Shown: positions 51,444-64,000 of the stretch, one piece after another
Layout: every line of letters begins with the position of its first letter
Position numbering within the stretch: position 1 is the first letter of the stretch
NCBI GenBank assembly: GCA_903859415.1
Contig: CAIOMN010000088.1
Coordinates: forward strand, 1-64,000
DNA from: an uncultured Methylococcaceae bacterium
GTDB lineage: Bacteria > Pseudomonadota > Gammaproteobacteria > Methylococcales > Methylomonadaceae
Direction: 5' to 3'
DNA: 64,000 nt
Notes under the pieces: generated by a model
Seen by the model: only the letters and a program-made list of their open reading frames with translations
Databases searched by the model: none
What the model was told of the DNA's origin: nothing
Translations under genes and position numbers: made by a program

Positions 51444-54200
51444 ATGCACCAAACCCCAGCTGAAAAGCAATTGAACCGACTTTTTCTAGCCTCATTGCTT
51501 CGTATCAGCTTTTTTATTGGCCTGGTTGATGGACTGATCATATTCTTATTACACAAAGTAGCCGTATTAAACCAATTTCAAGGCGATGTAATTTCAATTT
51601 CACTCCTGGTCCTGATAAGTTCCCCAATACTTTTGTTTGTGGTTTTACGGCCCCTGGTTGAAAGAATTACTCAGCAGCAAAAAATAACCACCGAACAGAT
51701 CCGGGTAAACGCTGAATTACGGATTGGACTGGATGCTCATGCATTGGTGAGTATTACCGATGCAAACGGGCGTATTATTTACGCAAACGAAAAGTTTTGT
51801 AAACTTTCAGGTTATTCTAACGAAGAATTGCTTGGCAAAGATCATCGCATAATTAGTTCAGGCTATCACAACAAAGCCTTTATGGCCAGTATATGGGAGA
51901 CGATTACTCAAGGACATATCTGGCAAGGTCAGCTCTGTAATCGAAGCAAAAGTGGGCAGTTATATTGGGTGGATAGCACCATTATGCCCTTGCTGGATGA
52001 AATGGACGCACCGTACCAATACATTTCAATCCGCCATGACATTACGGCACAGGTCGATCGAGAAGCCCTTGAACAGAGAGATCAAGAAGATACTCAGGCC
52101 CGTTTAGCTATTGCCAATACACTGTATCAGCCCGCCCCTTTTAAAGAGCGTTGCCTGTCAACATTGTCCATTCTTTTTAACATCCAGTCTCTACAGTTAC
52201 AACAGAAAGGTGGTTTATTTCTCAAAACTGAAGATGAACATAAATTGCATCTTTTTGCGTTACAAGGGAATTTTAGCGACGAATTCATCGAAAAAGAACA
52301 ATGTGTTAATTTTGGTGATTGTTTATGCGGTCGGGCAGCCTTATCAGGTGAGATACTGATATCTGACGACTGTTTCTGTGATCCCCGTCATGAGCATCAA
52401 TTCACTAACATGAAAGCGCATGGCCATTACATCATTCCGCTTGTCGTCAGTGGAAATACGCTGGGTGTTCTATTTCTTTTTACCGATCCATACCCCGTCA
52501 AAAACGAGTCTCGCTTGACCATGCTAAAACAGGTAGGCGACATGTTGGCTCTGGCCATACTCCAGGAACAGACCAAGAAGGAGCTTGAGCAGGCACGTGA
52601 CCTGGCTTTGCAAGCGGCTTTAGTAAAAAACGAGTTTTTAGCCAATATGAGTCACGAAATCCGTACACCCATGAATGGTGTACTGGGTATGTTAGATATA
52701 CTCCGCGATTCCGAAATGTCGAGTGACCAATCTGAACTGGTTGAAACAGCTTACACTTCGACTGAAGCTTTGTTGGCGATCCTGAACGATATTTTAGATT
52801 TCTCCAAACTGGAAGCGGGCAGAGTTGAAATAGAAACCATCGATTTTAATCTTGTTACCCTTATTGAAGAGGTGTGCAGCTTACTAGCCGTCCCCGCTTT
52901 CGCCAAGGGGCTAGAATTAAATTGTTTTGTACCGATTGAATTACCGAATTACTGGATGGGGGACCCTAACCGTATTCGACAAGTGCTCACAAATTTAATC
53001 AGTAATGCCATTAAGTTTACAGAACTGGGGGATGTTTCAGTAACCGTCAGTTATGAAACTGACCCGGATGGCAAGGCAACTCTATTTTTTAAAGTACAAG
53101 ACACGGGTATCGGGATAAGTCCTGAAACACAGGCGCGTTTGTTTCAAACCTTTACTCAAGCCGATAGTTCTACATCACGCCGCTTTGGTGGTACAGGGCT
53201 TGGCTTATCGATCAGTAAAATTCTTGTCGAACTGATGAACGGTACGATAGGCGTGGACAGTGAACTTGGAAAAGGTGCTTGCTTCTGGTTTAGCCTGCCG
53301 CTAGAACCTATAAAAGATGAGATACTCTTGCCCGCACTGATTAATCTTAAGGATAAGCGGGCTTTAGTCGTTGACGATAATGCTAATAACCGGATGATTC
53401 TGGAGCACTATGTATCAAGTTGGGGGATGACGGTATCGTCAGTTGATCATGCTTCTGCTGCATTAGTTACCTTAATTGACGCCTCACAAGGCGCGAAGCC
53501 TTTTGATATCCTACTTTCGGATTTGCAAATGCCGTTTATGGATGGTCTGTCTCTAGCCCGTATGATCTGTGAAATCCCTACCATTGCAAAGACGCCTCGA
53601 TTGCTTTTGTCATCAGGGGGGATTGGATCAGAAGCAAATTATAAGGCATTAGGCTTTTCACAATGTCTGATAAAACCGGTGCGACAAACACAGCTTTTTG
53701 ACGCCATCGTTAAGGCATTACAACCCGTTAAACCACTATCTGAGACACCAGTCAATACTGAAACTGAGGCTACATCCAATAAGGAAGTGTGGTCTGATTA
53801 CAGTAACAAGCGGGTGCTGGTCGCTGAAGATAATAGTGTTAACCGGAAAGTTATACTGGCAATGCTAGCCAGGTTTAATTTAAAACCTGATTTAGTTGAG
53901 AATGGACAATTAGCACTAGACCGATTGGCTCAGCAAAACTATGATTTGGTGCTAATGGATTGCCAGATGCCAATAATGGGCGGCTATGAAGCTACAACCA
54001 AACTCCGGGAGAAGGAGCAATCGACTAATAGTACTCGGACACCGGTGATTGCTCTTACCGCCCATGCAACTCTGGAAGCGCGTGAAACCAGTTTAGCTTC
54101 AGGAATGGATGGGCATCTCAGTAAGCCTATTAGCCGAACCGAATTAGCAGATGTTCTGGCTCGCTGGTTAGAACCCGTAGCGACCGACAAAAGCAGTTGA
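51444..54200 (+). CDS. hybrid sensor histidine kinase (PAS, GAF, two receiver domains)
   Basis: A 918-residue membrane sensor. Two N-terminal transmembrane helices (about 15-35 and 45-68) leave almost no periplasmic loop. Then come a PAS domain with PAC motif (about 95-195) and a GAF domain (about 215-385, with several cysteines, CLCGRAAL...[10 protein letters not shown]). The HisKA His is in [12 protein letters not shown] near 405. The HATPase has [19 protein letters not shown] and GGTGLGLSI. Two receivers follow: Asp near 693 (LLSDLQMP) and Asp near 839 (LMDCQMP). A final phosphotransfer domain is absent, so phosphate must go to a separate HPt protein. The ligand is unknown. Confidence 0.93.
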
Positions 54201-54618: not shown

Positions 54619-54806
54619 GGCATTGCCAAAGATCGTTGTTTAAATATATTTTTTACTTTTGGTATATAATTTTCCTGTTTTATTGCTATTGGAGCAGTAA
54701 TACTTTCCTATCCAAAGAAGGTGTAAATGAGCATTTTAGTTGGTAAATCAAGGCGATCTATCTTAGCTTTGACAAACATCAAGTCTAACAGTTTCAGATA
54801 GTTAAC

Positions 54807-55325
54807 TTATAAGCCCAGTCTTTCCAAAAAAGGGCGCATATCTTGTAAAAACTCATCCTTTATAAAATAATTATGTAGGCGGTCAAAAGCGTTATGGGCT
54901 ATTCGCATCCGCTCTGCTGTATTTGTAAGGTAATATTCCACTTTTTCATCAAAATCACTTAAGTCCCAAGCCAAAGGCACGTACGTTTCATAAGGTATAA
55001 ATATATCAGGACTACTAATTACATGGGACATGTCCTGTTTGAACAACAAACTTCCTGTACATATTGCTTCAAAATCTCGCCAACAGACTTCACCATAGCC
55101 AAAAGGACTAAAACAAATCTTGGCGTCCAAAAGCTCATGTAAAAAAACATCTATAGAAACTCGATCTTGAGTAACCAGCTTACTTTTAGCCGCACAATTT
55201 TGCACTATATCAAAACACTCCTGACGCATCCCTTGATACCAAGGGGTACCTGAAACAGCCATTCGCGCATGAATATCAACACTACGATTTTCATTCTCAG
55301 GAAATGGTGAAAGAAACATCGGCAC
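54807..55325 (-). pseudogene. truncated glycosyltransferase (C-terminal part)
   Basis: A frame of 172 residues from a GTG (open to about 55358, no ATG). It encodes the C-terminal half of a glycosyltransferase of the exostosin/GT1-like kind. The diagnostic segment is CFSPFGYGEVCWRDFEA followed by CTGSLLFKQDMSH, PDIFIPYETYVPLAWDLSDF and a helical end. Full family members are usually about twice as long; the N-terminal acceptor domain is missing, and a stop precedes the frame. No other sugar-transfer gene is near. It might be a pseudogene or a remnant of a lost polysaccharide cluster. Confidence 0.6.
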
Positions 55326-55521
55326 GAGATATCTGGCAAAAGCAAAACTAGACCCTATTCAAGATTCTGATTATCGATCTAAGTAGCTTGAACACTAATT
55401 TTAAAGTATTTGTGTTTATGTTAATTGGCCTATTGATGCTCTATATTTCATATGTCGCCAATAAAAAAACCGACCCCATGCTAAACTAATAAATATTTAT
55501 CAAGCCCTTTTATTATTCAGA

Positions 55522-56574
55522 ATGCATACTCGCCCTATCTATGAACGCATTGACTGGCTTTTTGAAATCGCCGCCCAGCATGCTACGACTTTTACAAGCC
55601 CCGAAGCCTGGTTGGCAAGACAACGATATCTCGCTAACCACCCAACCGCTATTGCCGTACTCAAATGCATGGATGGCCGTATAAACATACCCATTGCCAC
55701 CCGCACACCTCCGGGTATCATTGCTCCTTTTCGTAACCTGGGCGGCATGTTTAATCTGGGATGGCCACATCTGGGTGAAGTTCTTGCCCATCACGTACAA
55801 CTCATGGTCGGCCAAGGCCGCCAAATCCTTGTACTGGTAACCTATCATTTCTCTAAAGGTGACCCATCTCGTGGCTGCGCGGGTTTCCATTATGATACCG
55901 ATGCCGCACGCAGTCACACCGAGGAAATTCAAGCTCAAATGGAACATACCTTTGGTCGTGGTCACGCAAGTGTTTACCCCTTGGTTTGCGGATTTGAAAC
56001 CGATGAAGATGCACTGATTCTGCACGGTTGCGAAAATAACTCACTTAACGTTGCTGAACTGAATGACAACGACCGGGATACCCTGAGTTTGCGTTTAGCT
56101 AGACTTTTACCTGACATGCCAGAACGCATGCGTATGGATCTGATTCCACTTATTCTGGGTAATCTTGATCACATTAACGAAATACGCAAAAATCCACGTG
56201 CTTTGGAGATCGAACATCGTGAATGGGCTATCTGTATAGGTCGAGGCTTTGACTTCATGCATATACCCAATTTGGCCTTGATCATCGGTCCTTATAGTCC
56301 AGATCTTGCCGACCCGGTCCGCAAGGCAGCGGGTATTATTGAAAATAACATGCGTTCTGGCCGCATCCCTGATGACGGTTTTCTTTTGTTAGCCTCTGCA
56401 CCTTATGAGGAAGTTGGGGTAGATCGGGCAAGAGCTGAATTAAAGGCGCGTTTTATGTCTAAATTTACCGCAGAAGTTATAGGGCAGGTACACCCTGAAT
56501 TGGCTAAAAAAATGCATGTACGAACAGCGGTGCTTGATTGGCGTACCCGAGTTTTAGAAACTCTTCCTGAATAA
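55522..56574 (+). CDS. CsoSCA-like beta-type carbonic anhydrase, stand-alone
   Basis: A 350-residue protein. Residues 46-53 read AVLKCMDGR, the C-x-D-x-R zinc and Asp/Arg dyad motif of beta-carbonic anhydrases (C49, D51, R53). H109 and C119 in TYHFSKGDPSRGC would complete the zinc site. The order C-x-D-x-R, about 60 residues, then H and C ten apart, resembles CsoSCA of carboxysomes (C173, H242, C253), not the H-x2-C of ordinary beta enzymes. The visible protein is shorter than CsoSCA (about 500), and no Rubisco or carboxysome shell gene is near. No signal peptide is seen. Activity is inferred, not shown. Confidence 0.6.
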   Translation: MHTRPIYERIDWLFEIAAQHATTFTSPEAWLARQRYLANHPTAIAVLKCMDGRINIPIATRTPPGIIAPFRNLGGMFNLGWPHLGEVLAHHVQLMVGQGRQILVLVTYHFSKGDPSRGCAGFHYDTDAARSHTEEIQAQMEHTFGRGHASVYPLVCGFETDEDALILHGCENNSLNVAELNDNDRDTLSLRLARLLPDMPERMRMDLIPLILGNLDHINEIRKNPRALEIEHREWAICIGRGFDFMHIPNLALIIGPYSPDLADPVRKAAGIIENNMRSGRIPDDGFLLLASAPYEEVGVDRARAELKARFMSKFTAEVIGQVHPELAKKMHVRTAVLDWRTRVLETLPE

Positions 56575-56649: not shown

Positions 56650-58761
56650 TTACGCCATAAACCCCGAAAACTGACCAAAACCTGTTATCGCACAAAACCG
56701 TTTAGCCCGTGTAATAGCCACATAAAGCAAAGAGCGTTCTTTTTGCTCATGCTCCCTAATAACCGTTACATCATCAGACTCTAAATAATTTAACGGCACT
56801 ACACCCTCATTTACTCCGGCAACATACATATAATCAAACTCTAAACCTTTCACACGATGCATGGTTGCGATTCTGACCCCCGGGTGCTTAGCATTATCCA
56901 CGGTATTTTGTTCAATCTGATAATAAGGAATATGAGCGTCAGTCAAAGCCGCTTTATAACGCTCCATATCTTTTAATCTTCTGACAGTAATACAGGCATT
57001 AAGCCACGATTGCTCAGGGCGTTCTTGCAAAGAAGCCACAATAAAATCGGTTTCAGCTTTCGCATTATCAAAACAGTGAATAACCGGTTCTGCACCCGTC
57101 ATCAGCGAGCGATATCCCGATTGATCATCTTGCTTGTCATCTAAATCATCAAAAGCAATACCCTTTAATAAAGACACGGCAGACTGTCTAATCTGTTCAG
57201 TGGTGCGATAATTGATACGTAGCTTATGACTACGACCGGTAATTTTAATCCCACATTGACCCAACACCACTTTACTGCCATAAATACGCTGATGCGCATC
57301 ACCTACAATAAACAAATCGTTTTTATCTTCAGCCACTAAACGACGCAGTAACCGAAACGCATTCATCCCAAAATCTTGAGCCTCATCCACCAAGATATGC
57401 GTATAAGGTGCTTGGAGTTGATCATTTTCTATTAAAGTCAATGCATCCCTATACACATCCTCTGCCTCTTTTAAGCCTGCATCATTTAAGGCGACCCGAT
57501 AATTTTCAAAGACATCCCAAACGGCTTTACGCATAGATCGACTTAACTGCACACCACGCCCGACTCGTCTGGCCTGCAAATAACTTTCTAAGCTATTGAT
57601 ATTTTGCGGTTGAATGACCTTATTCCATTCTTCACGAAAAAAAGACTCCGATAAATCCCCTTCACTGGGTTTTAGAGTTAAGGCATTGTCCCAAAGTTCT
57701 TCAGTTTTCTTTTCATTCCAAAACGTATAATTAATTTTATAACCGTGTTTCTCCATAAAACGTTTAACCAACGCATCTAGGTTAATCACTTCAATTTTAC
57801 GCAACACTTCTGGCGCACAGATATGTTTTAAATTTTGCTCTATATCCAACGCCAAGTTTTTAGTAAAGGTGGTCAATAAAACTTTAGTCTCTCGCGACTC
57901 ATGTACTTGTTCCGCTGACCACTTCGCACGATGCATCGCAACCACTGTTTTACCCGTCCCTGCGCCACCTAAAACGCGCACAGGGCCATTCCAATCCCTG
58001 AAAATTAACTTCCGTTGCAAGGGATGTAAAAAGACCCGCCATTTCTCTAAAGGCGCATCCAGCATTGCTTGTAATGCTTCATCATCAGACGCCAATAAGA
58101 ACCGTCGTTTAGAATCTGGGGTATCCAAAGCACTGGCAAAATCATTGGTATCAATCGGGGTAGGCGCATCGTGTAAGCTCACATCATAAACAGACATGAC
58201 TTCTTCTAAACTAATGCCATCGGCTAACAGCGCTAAGGCCTCATACGCTTCATCAGGTAATTTAACTTTTAAGTCATCTAAATCTAAAGGACTAATGACT
58301 TGCCGAACCAACGGTAACAAATCTTCTGGCACCCCTAAACGCACCAAATAACGATCCCTTATAGACGCATATAAGCCCACCTGAGCAACCACTGATTGCT
58401 GTAATTTCTGAGCCTCATCGACATATTGCGTATCTAATATTTGCAAGACACCATTTTCAGGATTGACTTTAAATATCCTATCACTCGCCCATTGATAAGC
58501 ATCATCATGTAAATCTGCCCATAATAGAATATACACATCGCCTTTTTCGGGGGCTAACACAATGGCTCGATACGCCTGATCAATACGAATTGAGCGAAGA
58601 TTTTTATCTCGTGCTACTTGAATGGTTTCGTAGTTAATGCCTGGGGATTTAGGGTTTTGCCTAAAGGTCTCCATTAACTTAACCGCCTTATCCTGTTGAG
58701 CACGCGGTAACTTTAAAACACTGTTAAAAAAGTCAGACGATATAGCGACTTTGGGTTGCAT
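56650..58761 (-). CDS. UvrD/Rep-like SF1 helicase with RelE/ParE-like N-terminus
   Basis: A 703-residue protein. Residues 1-105 resemble a RelE/ParE toxin fold (FFNSVLKLPRAQQDKAVKLM, RSIRIDQAYRAIVL, LLWADLHDDAYQWA). The SF1A helicase begins with Walker A GGAGTGKTVVAMHRAKW near 265-281. It continues with LVDEAQDFG near 456-464, VGDAHQRIYG, a MHRVKGLEFDYMYV motif and a LLYVAITRAKRF signature near the end. A linker of some 130 residues separates the toxin-like part from the helicase. It starts 8 bp after the stop of the giant helicase gene, so the two are co-transcribed. The role is probably nucleic-acid processing in defence, by inference. Confidence 0.85.
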   Translation of the reverse strand: MQPKVAISSDFFNSVLKLPRAQQDKAVKLMETFRQNPKSPGINYETIQVARDKNLRSIRIDQAYRAIVLAPEKGDVYILLWADLHDDAYQWASDRIFKVNPENGVLQILDTQYVDEAQKLQQSVVAQVGLYASIRDRYLVRLGVPEDLLPLVRQVISPLDLDDLKVKLPDEAYEALALLADGISLEEVMSVYDVSLHDAPTPIDTNDFASALDTPDSKRRFLLASDDEALQAMLDAPLEKWRVFLHPLQRKLIFRDWNGPVRVLGGAGTGKTVVAMHRAKWSAEQVHESRETKVLLTTFTKNLALDIEQNLKHICAPEVLRKIEVINLDALVKRFMEKHGYKINYTFWNEKKTEELWDNALTLKPSEGDLSESFFREEWNKVIQPQNINSLESYLQARRVGRGVQLSRSMRKAVWDVFENYRVALNDAGLKEAEDVYRDALTLIENDQLQAPYTHILVDEAQDFGMNAFRLLRRLVAEDKNDLFIVGDAHQRIYGSKVVLGQCGIKITGRSHKLRINYRTTEQIRQSAVSLLKGIAFDDLDDKQDDQSGYRSLMTGAEPVIHCFDNAKAETDFIVASLQERPEQSWLNACITVRRLKDMERYKAALTDAHIPYYQIEQNTVDNAKHPGVRIATMHRVKGLEFDYMYVAGVNEGVVPLNYLESDDVTVIREHEQKERSLLYVAITRAKRFCAITGFGQFSGFMA

Positions 58762-58769
58762 AAAAATTC

Positions 58770-61700
58770 CTAGTTCGAAGCAAACGCATTTAATAAGGGT
58801 TGCATATCCTTATCCAGCTCAGTATTTATAAAAACTTGCCAACCTTTTTCGGTAAAGGTCACAGTATCCGACTCATATCCCTCATAAACAATAGCTACTT
58901 TATCATCTTGCCACGCTAAAAAGGCCTCGGCGATAATTTCACCCGATTCATCTAACCATTCAAAACCGCATTTCGGTACCGGAAGATTTAAAGGAATCAA
59001 TTGCTTAATAAACTCGATCTCTGCACCTACTGCATCGGCTAAGAGTAACTCCCAAGCCGACTCAATAATCGTATCCATAGAACCCGTGGTCGTGGAAGTC
59101 GTTCTGACTATTAACTGATCATAGGCAAGGCTCTCGATGCCTTTTTGAGTATAAAAACCGCTATACGGCTGAAACTGTATGACATTAATCAATCTTAAAA
59201 AACTTTGCCATTGCTTAAGATCACCTTCAAAATCAATTAAATCAGCACTATCATCAAATACCAGGTTTGAACTTAACTGGGTAAAGTCTTTCTGATTAAA
59301 AGCGACTTTATCAAGACGAACTGATAACTTAAGACGTTGATAACTATCACCCCATAAAATCCCCAATCGATCAGTCTTAGTTATTGCTGAGTCAAGGATA
59401 CAATCTAGTTTTAACTGTGCATATTCAGGTAAAGCTTGACCCAAAGTAAGATCAAAAGCAGCCGTCATTTGATTAAACCAAATAAACCCTAACAACGCCG
59501 AATAGCGTTGCCAAACCGATTCACACCCTTGAAGCAATAAAGCCATTAACCAAGAAAAACTGGATTGATCCTGTAAGCCCAACAAATCAACACAGGAAAA
59601 ATGCTCAGCTAACTTTCTCAAATTTATATTAGGCATTCCCAACAACAAATCAATCGGCAAGGCCACTTGGTCATCCAGCACATTTTGCACATCTTCATAC
59701 GTTAACGACCACACCCAATACTGATTAGACGCGACAATCGCCATTCTTTGCGCGGTATCTAAAGCCACTCGATCCTTATGATACTTAAAACCATCCGTAA
59801 AAATGACAATCGGTTTCAACTCAGGATTACCTAAAGGCACCATCACAAAATCAGCTCTGGATTGAATCGCTACCTGCTGTTCAGCACCCAATTCAACTTG
59901 GCGACGAATAAAATACCGTTGCTTTCCTAAACGTAAATACCAGCCCGCTTCTCCGGCATAAAACTCAGCACGCCACTCGAAATCAGATATCTTATTCTCC
60001 ATTTTAAGTGCCTTGCCGATTTTACGTAAGGCCTCAAGAAACCGAGCTTCTAACTCACTTTCGACTAACGGCGATAACTTAACCTCACGTAACCCGGCCA
60101 CCGGCACCATTTTGTCGGCATTTTCTTTAAGGGTCTGAATAAAGTCACGGGCTTTCTTACGAGAAATACTCGAAATATTACGGCTGTTTTTATAAACATA
60201 AAGACAACGATAACAACCATCGGCCTGTTCTTTTTGTACACAACGACACTGCTCTAAAACCGGCATAGCATAATCGGTTAACACTTGTATTAGATCATCT
60301 TGATGACTGGTTAATTGTTTTAAATACCCCGTACCACCCGGTACTGAATCATAAATCACCAAATACCGTTTACTGAGTTCGCTATCTTCTGGATCAGGTT
60401 CCACATTCTGAGCCACACGCAAATGATCAATACTGCCACCAAACTTTTTCTTTAAGCCCAGTTGTAAAGCCGCAATAAAAGACAACTCAGCACTGTCAGC
60501 ATCCATACCAGAGGTAATAGGTAATAAGATACGAATAGCTTCTGACTGAAACTCCCGATATAAAAACAAGCCACTGATGATATTATTTTCATTGTCTTTG
60601 TTTTTAGCCGTACAACTAATCGTATGCACTTGCTCTTTAGACTGGGTTGCATTGGGTTGCACCGTGCCACAGTTCTGGCACAACTTAAAACCGGTACGCT
60701 TTGATTCTTTACCTGCAATGGTAATTTCAGAAGAATTCTCGTCACTGTGTCCGGTATTAATCTCCCTAAAATCCGCCTTAGAAATAAACTCAAATCCAAA
60801 CGGCCAATCTGCTTTATCGACTTTATAGGCCGCTGTTATCGCGGTATTTTCAAAATCTATTAATAATTGTCTGGTAAAGAACTGGCTATCCCTATCATCT
60901 TTATCATCCGATATTCGGCTATTTCGATCTGGAGTCGTGGCATACACTTGTTTTAAGCGCAACATAGTTTGTTTTTGAGACACGTTCACCCACATTGCAT
61001 CACCACAACGCGGACATGTTTGATAATTATCTCCGGTATCAATACATTCAGAATGATGACAGGCCGGACAAAACCGCCAACTCTCTTGTTGAGAAACCCT
61101 TAAATCAACCCGATTAACCTGTACACGCCGACCACCGGCATAAAATACACTGGAGGGCGCTAATTCAGATAATGCCGAAGCAGCAGGACGCTCATATTTA
61201 TACGTCCAACGTTCTGATTCTTTATCAACGCCTGCCGCTTTTACCGCACTGTCATTATCCTTTTTGGAGCGATAGATCACCGAATGTAAAATAACGCCCT
61301 GCTCAGGAAAAGCATAATTAGGAATCAAACCTTCATCGGTCAAAAACTGTAAGGTATCCTGATTTTTAAGACTGCTCACTAAGGCTTGTAAGGCGGTTAA
61401 CTCAATCTCTAAATCTTCAATTTCCTTTTCATCTTGTTGAGATTTAGTTTCGATAGTCTTCTTAGTTTTTAAGACCGTATTAACCCGTTTGGCTTCCTTA
61501 GTCATTGACTCAACTTCTAAGGCTTGTTGCATCAATATTTCTTGAATCCGAAAACTTAAACTGCCCTGAGTTTTAAAATCACCTTCGGCAAAACGCTTTA
61601 TCCACTCCACAGAGAAAGTACTTAAACCTGCACCCAACCCCGAATTAAATAGCTCTAAAAACTGCGCTAATAAATCATCTCTATGAAGTTCAACTTCCGT

Positions 61701-64000
61701 TAAGAATGAATACGGAAACAAATTAACATTTATTTCCTTTTTAGAAATCGTGTTTAATACATCTTTTAACTTATGCGGGATAACCGCACGTTCGGCATAT
61801 TTCTTAACCCACTGATCCAAACAAAAAGCCGTGTATTGGCGCTCTAAAACCGCAGACGCATCCAGAAACACCCCGGGTGCTTCAACATCACCCGCCATCA
61901 TTTCGATAGGATCACTGTAAAAATACAGATCATGGGCATTGGCGTTGGCCAAGGTTATATTTAAGGCATTGCCATCACGTCGACCGGCTCGACCAATACG
62001 TTGCAGATAATTAGCTTGCGCCGGTGGAACCGAACACAACAAAACAGACGACAAATCGCCAATATCCACCCCCATCTCTAAAGTCGGTGTTGCAGACAAC
62101 AAATTGATATCCCAAGGATACCGATTTTCAGCCGTCTTTTTAAAAGAGGCTTCAACATGAGCCCGCTCATCACGGGTTAATAAGCCAGTGTGTTCTGCCG
62201 CCACCACTCGATTAACGTCACCATCCCGATATAAGCGCCCATAAAAATCTAAAGCGTCAGTGACTGCCTTATGTAACTGATAATGTCCAAAACAATTTTT
62301 TTGTAAGCACTTTGAAGACAGCCAACTCTCTAATTCACGCTCAGCCACACTATAAGTGTGCTTACATTTATCACAACAGACACTTGCCACCTGTGTGCTG
62401 AGTAATAAACACTCTGGATTAATGCCCCAAACGGTATCTTGAGTTTTAGTAGCTCTATCCACTAAGATTTGTGCCTTAACTAAATGCGTCAGTACAAGAC
62501 TGTAAATATCCGCCGTTAAATCACCGGTCGGTTGCAAATTATCAGCCGCTAACAAGGCTTTAATTAACCAGGTTTGATACCAACTATTAGACGATTTCGC
62601 GGCTGAAGAGATCGTTTCTAAACCCTTCCCTTTTACCGTGCCTAAAAAGGTAGGAATACGAGCACTATAAGCAAAATTAGGTAAAGCGATTTGATTAATA
62701 AATACGTTCGGATCACCGTTATTATGAATATAGCCCTCTAAGTCTGGATAATAAATCCCACCCATTAAACGTAAATGCGCCAAGAAACCTAAAACAAAGC
62801 GGTGTAAACGCTCATAAGATAAATCTCTTAAGGTGCCAATATTTTCCTGCAAGGCACTTAATAGCCCGTTTAAACACGGTTCTAATTCTGCCTGAGAATA
62901 ATAACTGGCCACCGCACCACTGCGTTCTAAAGAACGCCCAATGCGCGACTTAAAGCCTAACTCACTTAAAATATCAAAGGCTAAGCGCCGTTGTAACAAA
63001 GCCGCTAGATTAGAGCCTTCTGGTAAAATATCGGTGTTTTTTAACACTGAATAATCCCGCAACCACTCCATGTTAAGCGGTAAAAAAGTACCTATAAAAG
63101 CCGCCTCACCTAAGGCATCAAACCAATACTGATTAAACTGCTGAATCACTTCACTTAACGAAGTGTCCACTTTAGCTTGATCCAGCACCTTTCTTAAAGC
63201 CACCCGAAAACCATAAGACCGGGTTCTAGCGGCAATAAAACCGGCACGATGTGCGGTATCTTGAACGCCATCAGAAAAGGCGATTAATTGTTTATCCCGA
63301 TTAAAGCGAGAGGTGCTTAACTGCCCCACCATGACAGAAGACAAGCTGGTAGAACGCGCACCCACAATTAATAAACTGTCTTTACTTTGACAAAAAGGAC
63401 AATCGTTATCGCTTTTATGTTTTGATTCTCCGGTCTGTTTATTGATTTCAGTTTTAGAATTATTGGCAACATGCACCCACACCAAACTGTCTTCACCACA
63501 ATTCTGGCAACTGTGTTGCGAACGACTATTTAAATACCCACAGCCTGTACATAAATTTCTGTCTAAACTACTCGCAAAGTTCCAAGGCGTCTCAACCTTA
63601 TCCATAGGAAACAACAAAATCGACTTGGCTGAATGCGCAAAATAACTGTTATAAATCTGAAGTAAATCAGTATCTATTTTTGACTGATCCGTTTCTTTAT
63701 GCGCCACAAACCCCATAGCCCCACAATCACGACAATGAATCGCCGGTAAGGCAACACGATCTTTAGGCACTAAACCATCATCGGCAAATAATAATGTCGG
63801 TTGCTGTTCAATAGCCGGTAATAAAACCAATAACCGACTCAGTTCCCTAAGCCATAATTGCATCCGCACATCTAATAACGGCGCCAAATAACCAGCCTGA
63901 TTTTCTCTCGCTACCGAAATCAAAGACACCAAACTGATTAATAACTGCTCAACCCACTCATCCGTTAACTCAGGCTGAGAACCCAAACACTTTTTAAATC
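58770..64000 (-). CDS. giant SF2 helicase with DUF1998 and nuclease-like C-terminus (partial)
   Basis: The last 1740 or so residues of a protein whose N-terminus, with helicase motif I, lies beyond the window; the frame is open to the edge. Visible parts, counted from 63986, are: zinc motifs CRDC near 85, CTGC/CQNC near 141-162, CPFC near 197. An AFSDGVQDTAHRAGF block follows near 233. The SF2 lobe 2 has LLSATPTLEMGVDIGDL near 632 and QRIGRAGRRDG near 665. A coiled linker near 855-905 precedes CPAC/CPRC near 967-988. The DUF1998 end has CRCVQKEQADGCYRCLY near 1248-1265. A PD-(D/E)xK-like stretch with SRADFVMVP...IVIFTDGFKYH lies near 1373-1400. Its family resembles COG1205-type helicases such as DISARM, Druantia and MrfA relatives. 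Confidence 0.82.
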   Translation of the reverse strand, partial: FKKCLGSQPELTDEWVEQLLISLVSLISVARENQAGYLAPLLDVRMQLWLRELSRLLVLLPAIEQQPTLLFADDGLVPKDRVALPAIHCRDCGAMGFVAHKETDQSKIDTDLLQIYNSYFAHSAKSILLFPMDKVETPWNFASSLDRNLCTGCGYLNSRSQHSCQNCGEDSLVWVHVANNSKTEINKQTGESKHKSDNDCPFCQSKDSLLIVGARSTSLSSVMVGQLSTSRFNRDKQLIAFSDGVQDTAHRAGFIAARTRSYGFRVALRKVLDQAKVDTSLSEVIQQFNQYWFDALGEAAFIGTFLPLNMEWLRDYSVLKNTDILPEGSNLAALLQRRLAFDILSELGFKSRIGRSLERSGAVASYYSQAELEPCLNGLLSALQENIGTLRDLSYERLHRFVLGFLAHLRLMGGIYYPDLEGYIHNNGDPNVFINQIALPNFAYSARIPTFLGTVKGKGLETISSAAKSSNSWYQTWLIKALLAADNLQPTGDLTADIYSLVLTHLVKAQILVDRATKTQDTVWGINPECLLLSTQVASVCCDKCKHTYSVAERELESWLSSKCLQKNCFGHYQLHKAVTDALDFYGRLYRDGDVNRVVAAEHTGLLTRDERAHVEASFKKTAENRYPWDINLLSATPTLEMGVDIGDLSSVLLCSVPPAQANYLQRIGRAGRRDGNALNITLANANAHDLYFYSDPIEMMAGDVEAPGVFLDASAVLERQYTAFCLDQWVKKYAERAVIPHKLKDVLNTISKKEINVNLFPYSFLTEVELHRDDLLAQFLELFNSGLGAGLSTFSVEWIKRFAEGDFKTQGSLSFRIQEILMQQALEVESMTKEAKRVNTVLKTKKTIETKSQQDEKEIEDLEIELTALQALVSSLKNQDTLQFLTDEGLIPNYAFPEQGVILHSVIYRSKKDNDSAVKAAGVDKESERWTYKYERPAASALSELAPSSVFYAGGRRVQVNRVDLRVSQQESWRFCPACHHSECIDTGDNYQTCPRCGDAMWVNVSQKQTMLRLKQVYATTPDRNSRISDDKDDRDSQFFTRQLLIDFENTAITAAYKVDKADWPFGFEFISKADFREINTGHSDENSSEITIAGKESKRTGFKLCQNCGTVQPNATQSKEQVHTISCTAKNKDNENNIISGLFLYREFQSEAIRILLPITSGMDADSAELSFIAALQLGLKKKFGGSIDHLRVAQNVEPDPEDSELSKRYLVIYDSVPGGTGYLKQLTSHQDDLIQVLTDYAMPVLEQCRCVQKEQADGCYRCLYVYKNSRNISSISRKKARDFIQTLKENADKMVPVAGLREVKLSPLVESELEARFLEALRKIGKALKMENKISDFEWRAEFYAGEAGWYLRLGKQRYFIRRQVELGAEQQVAIQSRADFVMVPLGNPELKPIVIFTDGFKYHKDRVALDTAQRMAIVASNQYWVWSLTYEDVQNVLDDQVALPIDLLLGMPNINLRKLAEHFSCVDLLGLQDQSSFSWLMALLLQGCESVWQRYSALLGFIWFNQMTAAFDLTLGQALPEYAQLKLDCILDSAITKTDRLGILWGDSYQRLKLSVRLDKVAFNQKDFTQLSSNLVFDDSADLIDFEGDLKQWQSFLRLINVIQFQPYSGFYTQKGIESLAYDQLIVRTTSTTTGSMDTIIESAWELLLADAVGAEIEFIKQLIPLNLPVPKCGFEWLDESGEIIAEAFLAWQDDKVAIVYEGYESDTVTFTEKGWQVFINTELDKDMQPLLNAFASN

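Follow-up and report, generated by a model that had tools for sequence, protein, structure and literature searches.

The long N-terminal region of carboxysomal CsoSCA, a carbonic anhydrase of the beta type (beta-CA), binds Rubisco. Homologues of CsoSCA outside carboxysomes were named CsoSCA2 in 2022, when they were reported from autotrophs and heterotrophs and called extremely widespread (PMC9164163). The same paper described a second, compact variant with a 40-residue N-terminus and shortened loops, termed the second half of the protein defunct, and raised the questions of what makes CsoSCA2 so frequent and which partner it has; methanotrophs are not mentioned in it (PMC9164163). Elsewhere in the literature searched, a 2025 structural paper uses CsoSCA2 as an outgroup only, the name occurs in no other relevant paper, and no measured activity is reported for any CsoSCA2 protein.

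Here, we analysed a stretch of 64,000 nucleotides (the window) from the genome of an uncultured Methylococcaceae bacterium, in which a gene at 55522..56574 on the forward strand encodes a protein of 350 aa. We consider it very probable that this protein is a compact, cytosolic carbonic anhydrase of the CsoSCA2 type with a Cys/His zinc site, which was most likely gained laterally and would supplement the other carbonic anhydrases of the host. The compact stand-alone group has thus been described before, under the name CsoSCA2, and the methanotroph-type host group is new to it. An ORF of 170 aa (55513-56025, reverse strand) overlaps the gene and reads the same DNA in the antisense direction.

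Family assignment, predicted fold and zinc-site residues

A preliminary description of the locus had proposed a stand-alone CsoSCA-like beta-CA, and sequence, predicted fold and active-site conservation together support membership of the CsoSCA2 family. In the Pfam search, the protein matched the CsoSCA catalytic domain (PF20686, CsoSCA_cat) with E=4.9e-7 and 29.9 bits, above the curated cut-off of 21.5. No other Pfam family matched, including Pro_CA (PF00484) at E<=10. The same pattern was seen in 34 relatives of the window protein, among which PF20686 matched 29 at E<=1 and Pro_CA matched one (E 0.2). PF08936, the family named earlier for an HMM check, is the C-terminal domain; it found no match in the genome or in any control genome and is thus uninformative here. 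CsoSCA proteins are the only sequence matches in the PDB. The score against TIGR02701, the equivalog model of carboxysomal CsoSCA, was 43.3 bits, below its cut-off of 241.05, and no Rubisco or shell genes lie alongside, so the protein is by these tests not a carboxysomal CsoSCA.

An AlphaFold2 model built with 34 sequences had a mean pLDDT of 89.9 and a pTM of 0.86. Foldseek placed the Cyanobium and Halothiobacillus CsoSCA structures on top (E about 1e-15), and VIA-align matched the model to 2fgy, 9g4t and 8thm with Z 29.8-30.6 over 328-333 residues at ~20% identity, so that the beta-CA catalytic fold expected at the outset is present in the model. The next match was the two-domain beta-CA of Porphyridium (1ddz, Z 20), followed by single-domain beta-CAs with Z about 10. 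Because the PF20686 score lies above its cut-off and the fold match is of this strength, the window protein is related to CsoSCA beyond chance.

The fold match spans the whole chain, residues 1-350, which indicates that both CsoSCA halves are predicted to be present and the N-terminus is short. The product is thus laid out as an N-terminus of ~40 residues with two helices (predicted at residues 6-25 and 27-39), a catalytic beta-CA half and a degenerate second beta-CA half. This N-terminus is like that of the second CsoSCA2 variant, and the combination of an active and a degenerate half, the complete set of catalytic residues and the lack of carboxysome genes nearby are likewise shared with CsoSCA2, whereas the window protein sits on a branch of its own without firm placement by the tree and is no more than 76% identical to the other members. 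With the carboxysomal enzymes of Halothiobacillus neapolitanus (2FGY/9G4T) and Cyanobium (8THM) it shares the two-half fold, but it does not have their long N-terminal region: 48 residues precede the first Cys, as compared to 165-196 in carboxysomal homologues, a range counted from the preceding stop codon and hence an upper bound. The two predicted helices replace the Rubisco-binding region, and the window protein is therefore not built for encapsulation. Canonical beta-CAs (E. coli Can, CcaA and Porphyridium 1ddz) have the catalytic fold of the first half in common with it, while most of them carry one repeat per chain instead of two halves.

The residues of the zinc site had been recognized earlier from their order and nearly CsoSCA-like spacing, and all of them are present. 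The motif CMDGR (55666..55680, forward strand) carries C49, a putative ligand of the zinc ion, together with the D51/R53 dyad, and HFSKGDPSRGC (55846..55878, forward strand), which matches YHFS..GCA of CsoSCA, contains the putative ligands H109 and C119. These five residues are invariant in all 81 aligned CsoSCA2 sequences and in 61 of 61 sequences of a set including more divergent, phylum-level members, so that the ligands are kept in homologues, and the same alignment columns hold identical residues in three carboxysomal CsoSCAs. The His-to-Cys spacing is 10 in the window protein and 11 in CsoSCA (YHFSKGDPSR-GCA vs YHFSTSDPTHSGCA); the spacing in the zinc site of canonical beta-CAs is His-x-x-Cys. 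C49, H109 and C119 would bind one zinc ion per chain, and the D51-R53 dyad would work as it does in beta-CAs.

The second half holds no counterparts of H109 and C119 in the alignment. It contains the segment C238-I-G-R241-G-F-D244-F-M-H247 (56233..56262, forward strand), in which CsoSCA2 proteins show no variation at C238, R241, D244 and H247, whereas the three carboxysomal proteins have G, I, E and Q or R at these positions; C156 is specific to CsoSCA2 in the same way. This invariance suggests that the second half has kept some role. These residues could also belong to a beta-CA fold with a different activity, which would not act as a carbonic anhydrase in vivo; CS2 and COS hydrolases are known among other beta-CA relatives, one of the lower-ranking fold matches is a carbon disulfide hydrolase (3ten), and the literature searched reports no carbonic anhydrase activity for CsoSCA2. 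However, 3ten reached Z 9.0, not above other beta-CAs, the complete set of carbonic anhydrase active-site residues, D-R dyad included, is conserved without exception, and the CsoSCA proteins, which are the nearest homologues whose activity has been measured, are carbonic anhydrases. We therefore regard a different activity as quite improbable.

Distribution and the synteny break

Relatives of the window protein were found in 251 stretches of GTDB contigs, and the best 80 of these 251 belong mostly to Betaproteobacteria and Gammaproteobacteria; Desulfobulbaceae and Magnetococcales are among the further groups represented. The distribution was scored with the protein query and alignment A1 instead of PF20686, which was set aside because it is weak for CsoSCA2 at class level, where most of its matches, in 68 other genomes, were CsoSCA genes with open frames of ~500-540 residues, the length of the carboxysomal form. 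In an evenly drawn phylum sample, 12 of 398 genomes were carriers, and among 311 sampled genomes of its own order the window genome was the only one. In the tree, the window protein occupies a separate branch with a length of 0.39, which is not firmly placed and points to no particular donor lineage.

For the comparison of gene order, we used the relative with the best match to Fpg (94%; genome G017), since the histidine kinase gene at 51444-54200 has many paralogues and is a poor anchor. The genes for MoeA, MobB, DnaJ and Fpg are collinear between the window and this relative, and conservation extends to the genes for a CAAX-protease-like and a glycosyltransferase-like protein. By blastn, positions 14467-15051 of the relative's locus (L156) match 54771-55355 of the window, and the match ends within the glycosyltransferase-like gene. 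This gene has 379 codons in the relative (L156:14503-15642), as compared to a 3' remnant of 172 codons in the window (54807..55325, reverse strand). Synteny ends at ~55355, and an intergenic stretch (55355..55521) leads from there to the 5' end of the CsoSCA2 gene. On the same side, the relative has the intact glycosyltransferase-like gene followed by genes for PEP carboxylase and a beta-CA, both of which the host carries on another contig (C92). In the window, the CsoSCA2 gene beyond the break is followed by a UvrD-type helicase gene (56650..58761, reverse strand) and a defence-type, DruE-like/MrfA-like helicase gene (58770..63986, reverse strand), the 5' end of which reaches the contig end at 64670.

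The break in synteny and the defence-type helicases nearby point to lateral acquisition, and the simplest and most likely reading is a gain at a variable site that bears defence genes. Differential loss is another possible explanation for the absence of CsoSCA2 elsewhere in the order, and a chimeric or misjoined contig is possible at the ~55355 break. The third-position GC content (GC3) of the CsoSCA2 gene is 0.40, like that of the host, while the five high-GC relatives compared have values of 0.82-0.86; a transfer would thus not be recent, or the donor would be AT-rich.

The position of the gene at a break that truncates its neighbour, beside the UvrD and DruE-like helicases, and its absence from the 310 other genomes of the order could also mean that a mobile or defence island carries it as a passenger that does nothing for the host. 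Yet the ORF is intact, the catalytic residues have all been kept despite the long branch (0.39), and the third-position composition is host-like, which together suggest persistence under selection and make a mere passenger unlikely. The UvrD-type gene and the very long, contig-cut DruE-like (Druantia-type) helicase gene (56650-63986) form a possible defence island.

Host genome and proposed role

The assembly comprises 3.7 Mb in 280 contigs and is 99.9% complete. It contains two genes of the pmoA/amoA family, and on the evidence of this family the host is a probable methane oxidiser and less likely an ammonia oxidiser. The Rubisco large subunit (PF00016) and the BMC shell domain (PF00936) were detected nowhere in the assembly, while both models found matches in control genomes. 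The absence of Rubisco and shell genes, previously claimed for the 64 kb, therefore holds for the whole assembly, and the genome fits the heterotrophic or methanotrophic host without a carboxysome that had been envisaged.

Two canonical beta-CAs are encoded in the assembly, one of which is adjoined by the PEP carboxylase gene on contig C92, together with two DabA homologues. The DabA loci of this genome, in which no Rubisco is detectable, are L164:4575-9136 (G000:C58), a simple dabB-dabA pair, and L165 (G000:C29).

As a carbonic anhydrase, the window protein would interconvert CO2 and bicarbonate while free in the cytosol. CO2 released by C1 oxidation would be hydrated, and the bicarbonate would be available to enzymes such as PEP carboxylase; we infer this supply of bicarbonate as the role. 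The activity would add to those of the two canonical beta-CAs and the two DAB pumps, and given the two other beta-CAs the CsoSCA2 gene may be dispensable. In Methylococcus capsulatus, growth is impaired by the loss of single carbonic anhydrase isoforms (PMC11423575).

The dabA-antiporter neighbourhood of CsoSCA2

Among 81 CsoSCA2 loci, we found 14 in which an operon of dabA and antiporter-like genes is encoded on the opposite strand beyond the 3' end of CsoSCA2, so that the two are convergent (L002, L005, L013, L021, L033, L034, L040, L048, L053, L054, L066, L073, L075 and L079). The strand and side are constant in these 14 loci, and dabA is located 4.6-5.6 kb from CsoSCA2. Most of the operons contain three antiporter-like genes; in L034, for example, a scan found three Proton_antipo_M proteins in between and DabA last. 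The carriers belong to several classes of Pseudomonadota, including Thiodiazotropha, Hydrogenophilales, Rhodocyclaceae and other gammaproteobacteria. On the tree, the presence of a dabA neighbour changes seven times, and at least five of these changes are forced by well-supported branches. The seven changes indicate that the arrangement is not the accident of one clade, although transfer as a block is possible. We found no mention of the arrangement in the literature searched, and it is absent from the window genome. Other neighbour families, such as the SpoU methylase in Accumulibacter, look lineage-specific.

This recurrent, one-sided neighbourhood raises the possibility that CsoSCA2 is a partner of DAB-type inorganic carbon pumps and re-equilibrates the bicarbonate they deliver with CO2 in the cytosol for carboxylases, and that the window copy has been parted from its pump genes. 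Such a partnership would agree with the dabA operons beside some of the nearest homologues of the window protein (L002, L005 and L013) and with the two DabA proteins of the host. However, CsoSCA2 and dabA are convergent and not one operon, most loci are without dabA, both DAB loci of the host lie on other contigs and encode proteins ~37-38% identical to the linked DabA, and a free cytosolic carbonic anhydrase can dissipate a bicarbonate pool. We hold the partnership to be a tentative possibility, less probable than its absence; it is compatible with our best explanation, a supplementary cytosolic carbonic anhydrase, and specifies the role.

A wider and rather doubtful proposal would make CsoSCA2 the dedicated cytosolic partner of a three-antiporter DAB pump in carboxysome-free carbon supply. 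Its second half would then not be defunct but form a conserved, family-specific site (C238, R241, D244, H247 and possibly C156) with a regulatory or tethering function, and the window gene would have been laterally acquired in a methane oxidiser.

The occurrence of CsoSCA2 in a host without detectable Rubisco means that this fold can persist in the absence of Rubisco-based carbon fixation, and the repeated occurrence of DAB genes nearby provides a testable lead on the partner of CsoSCA2.
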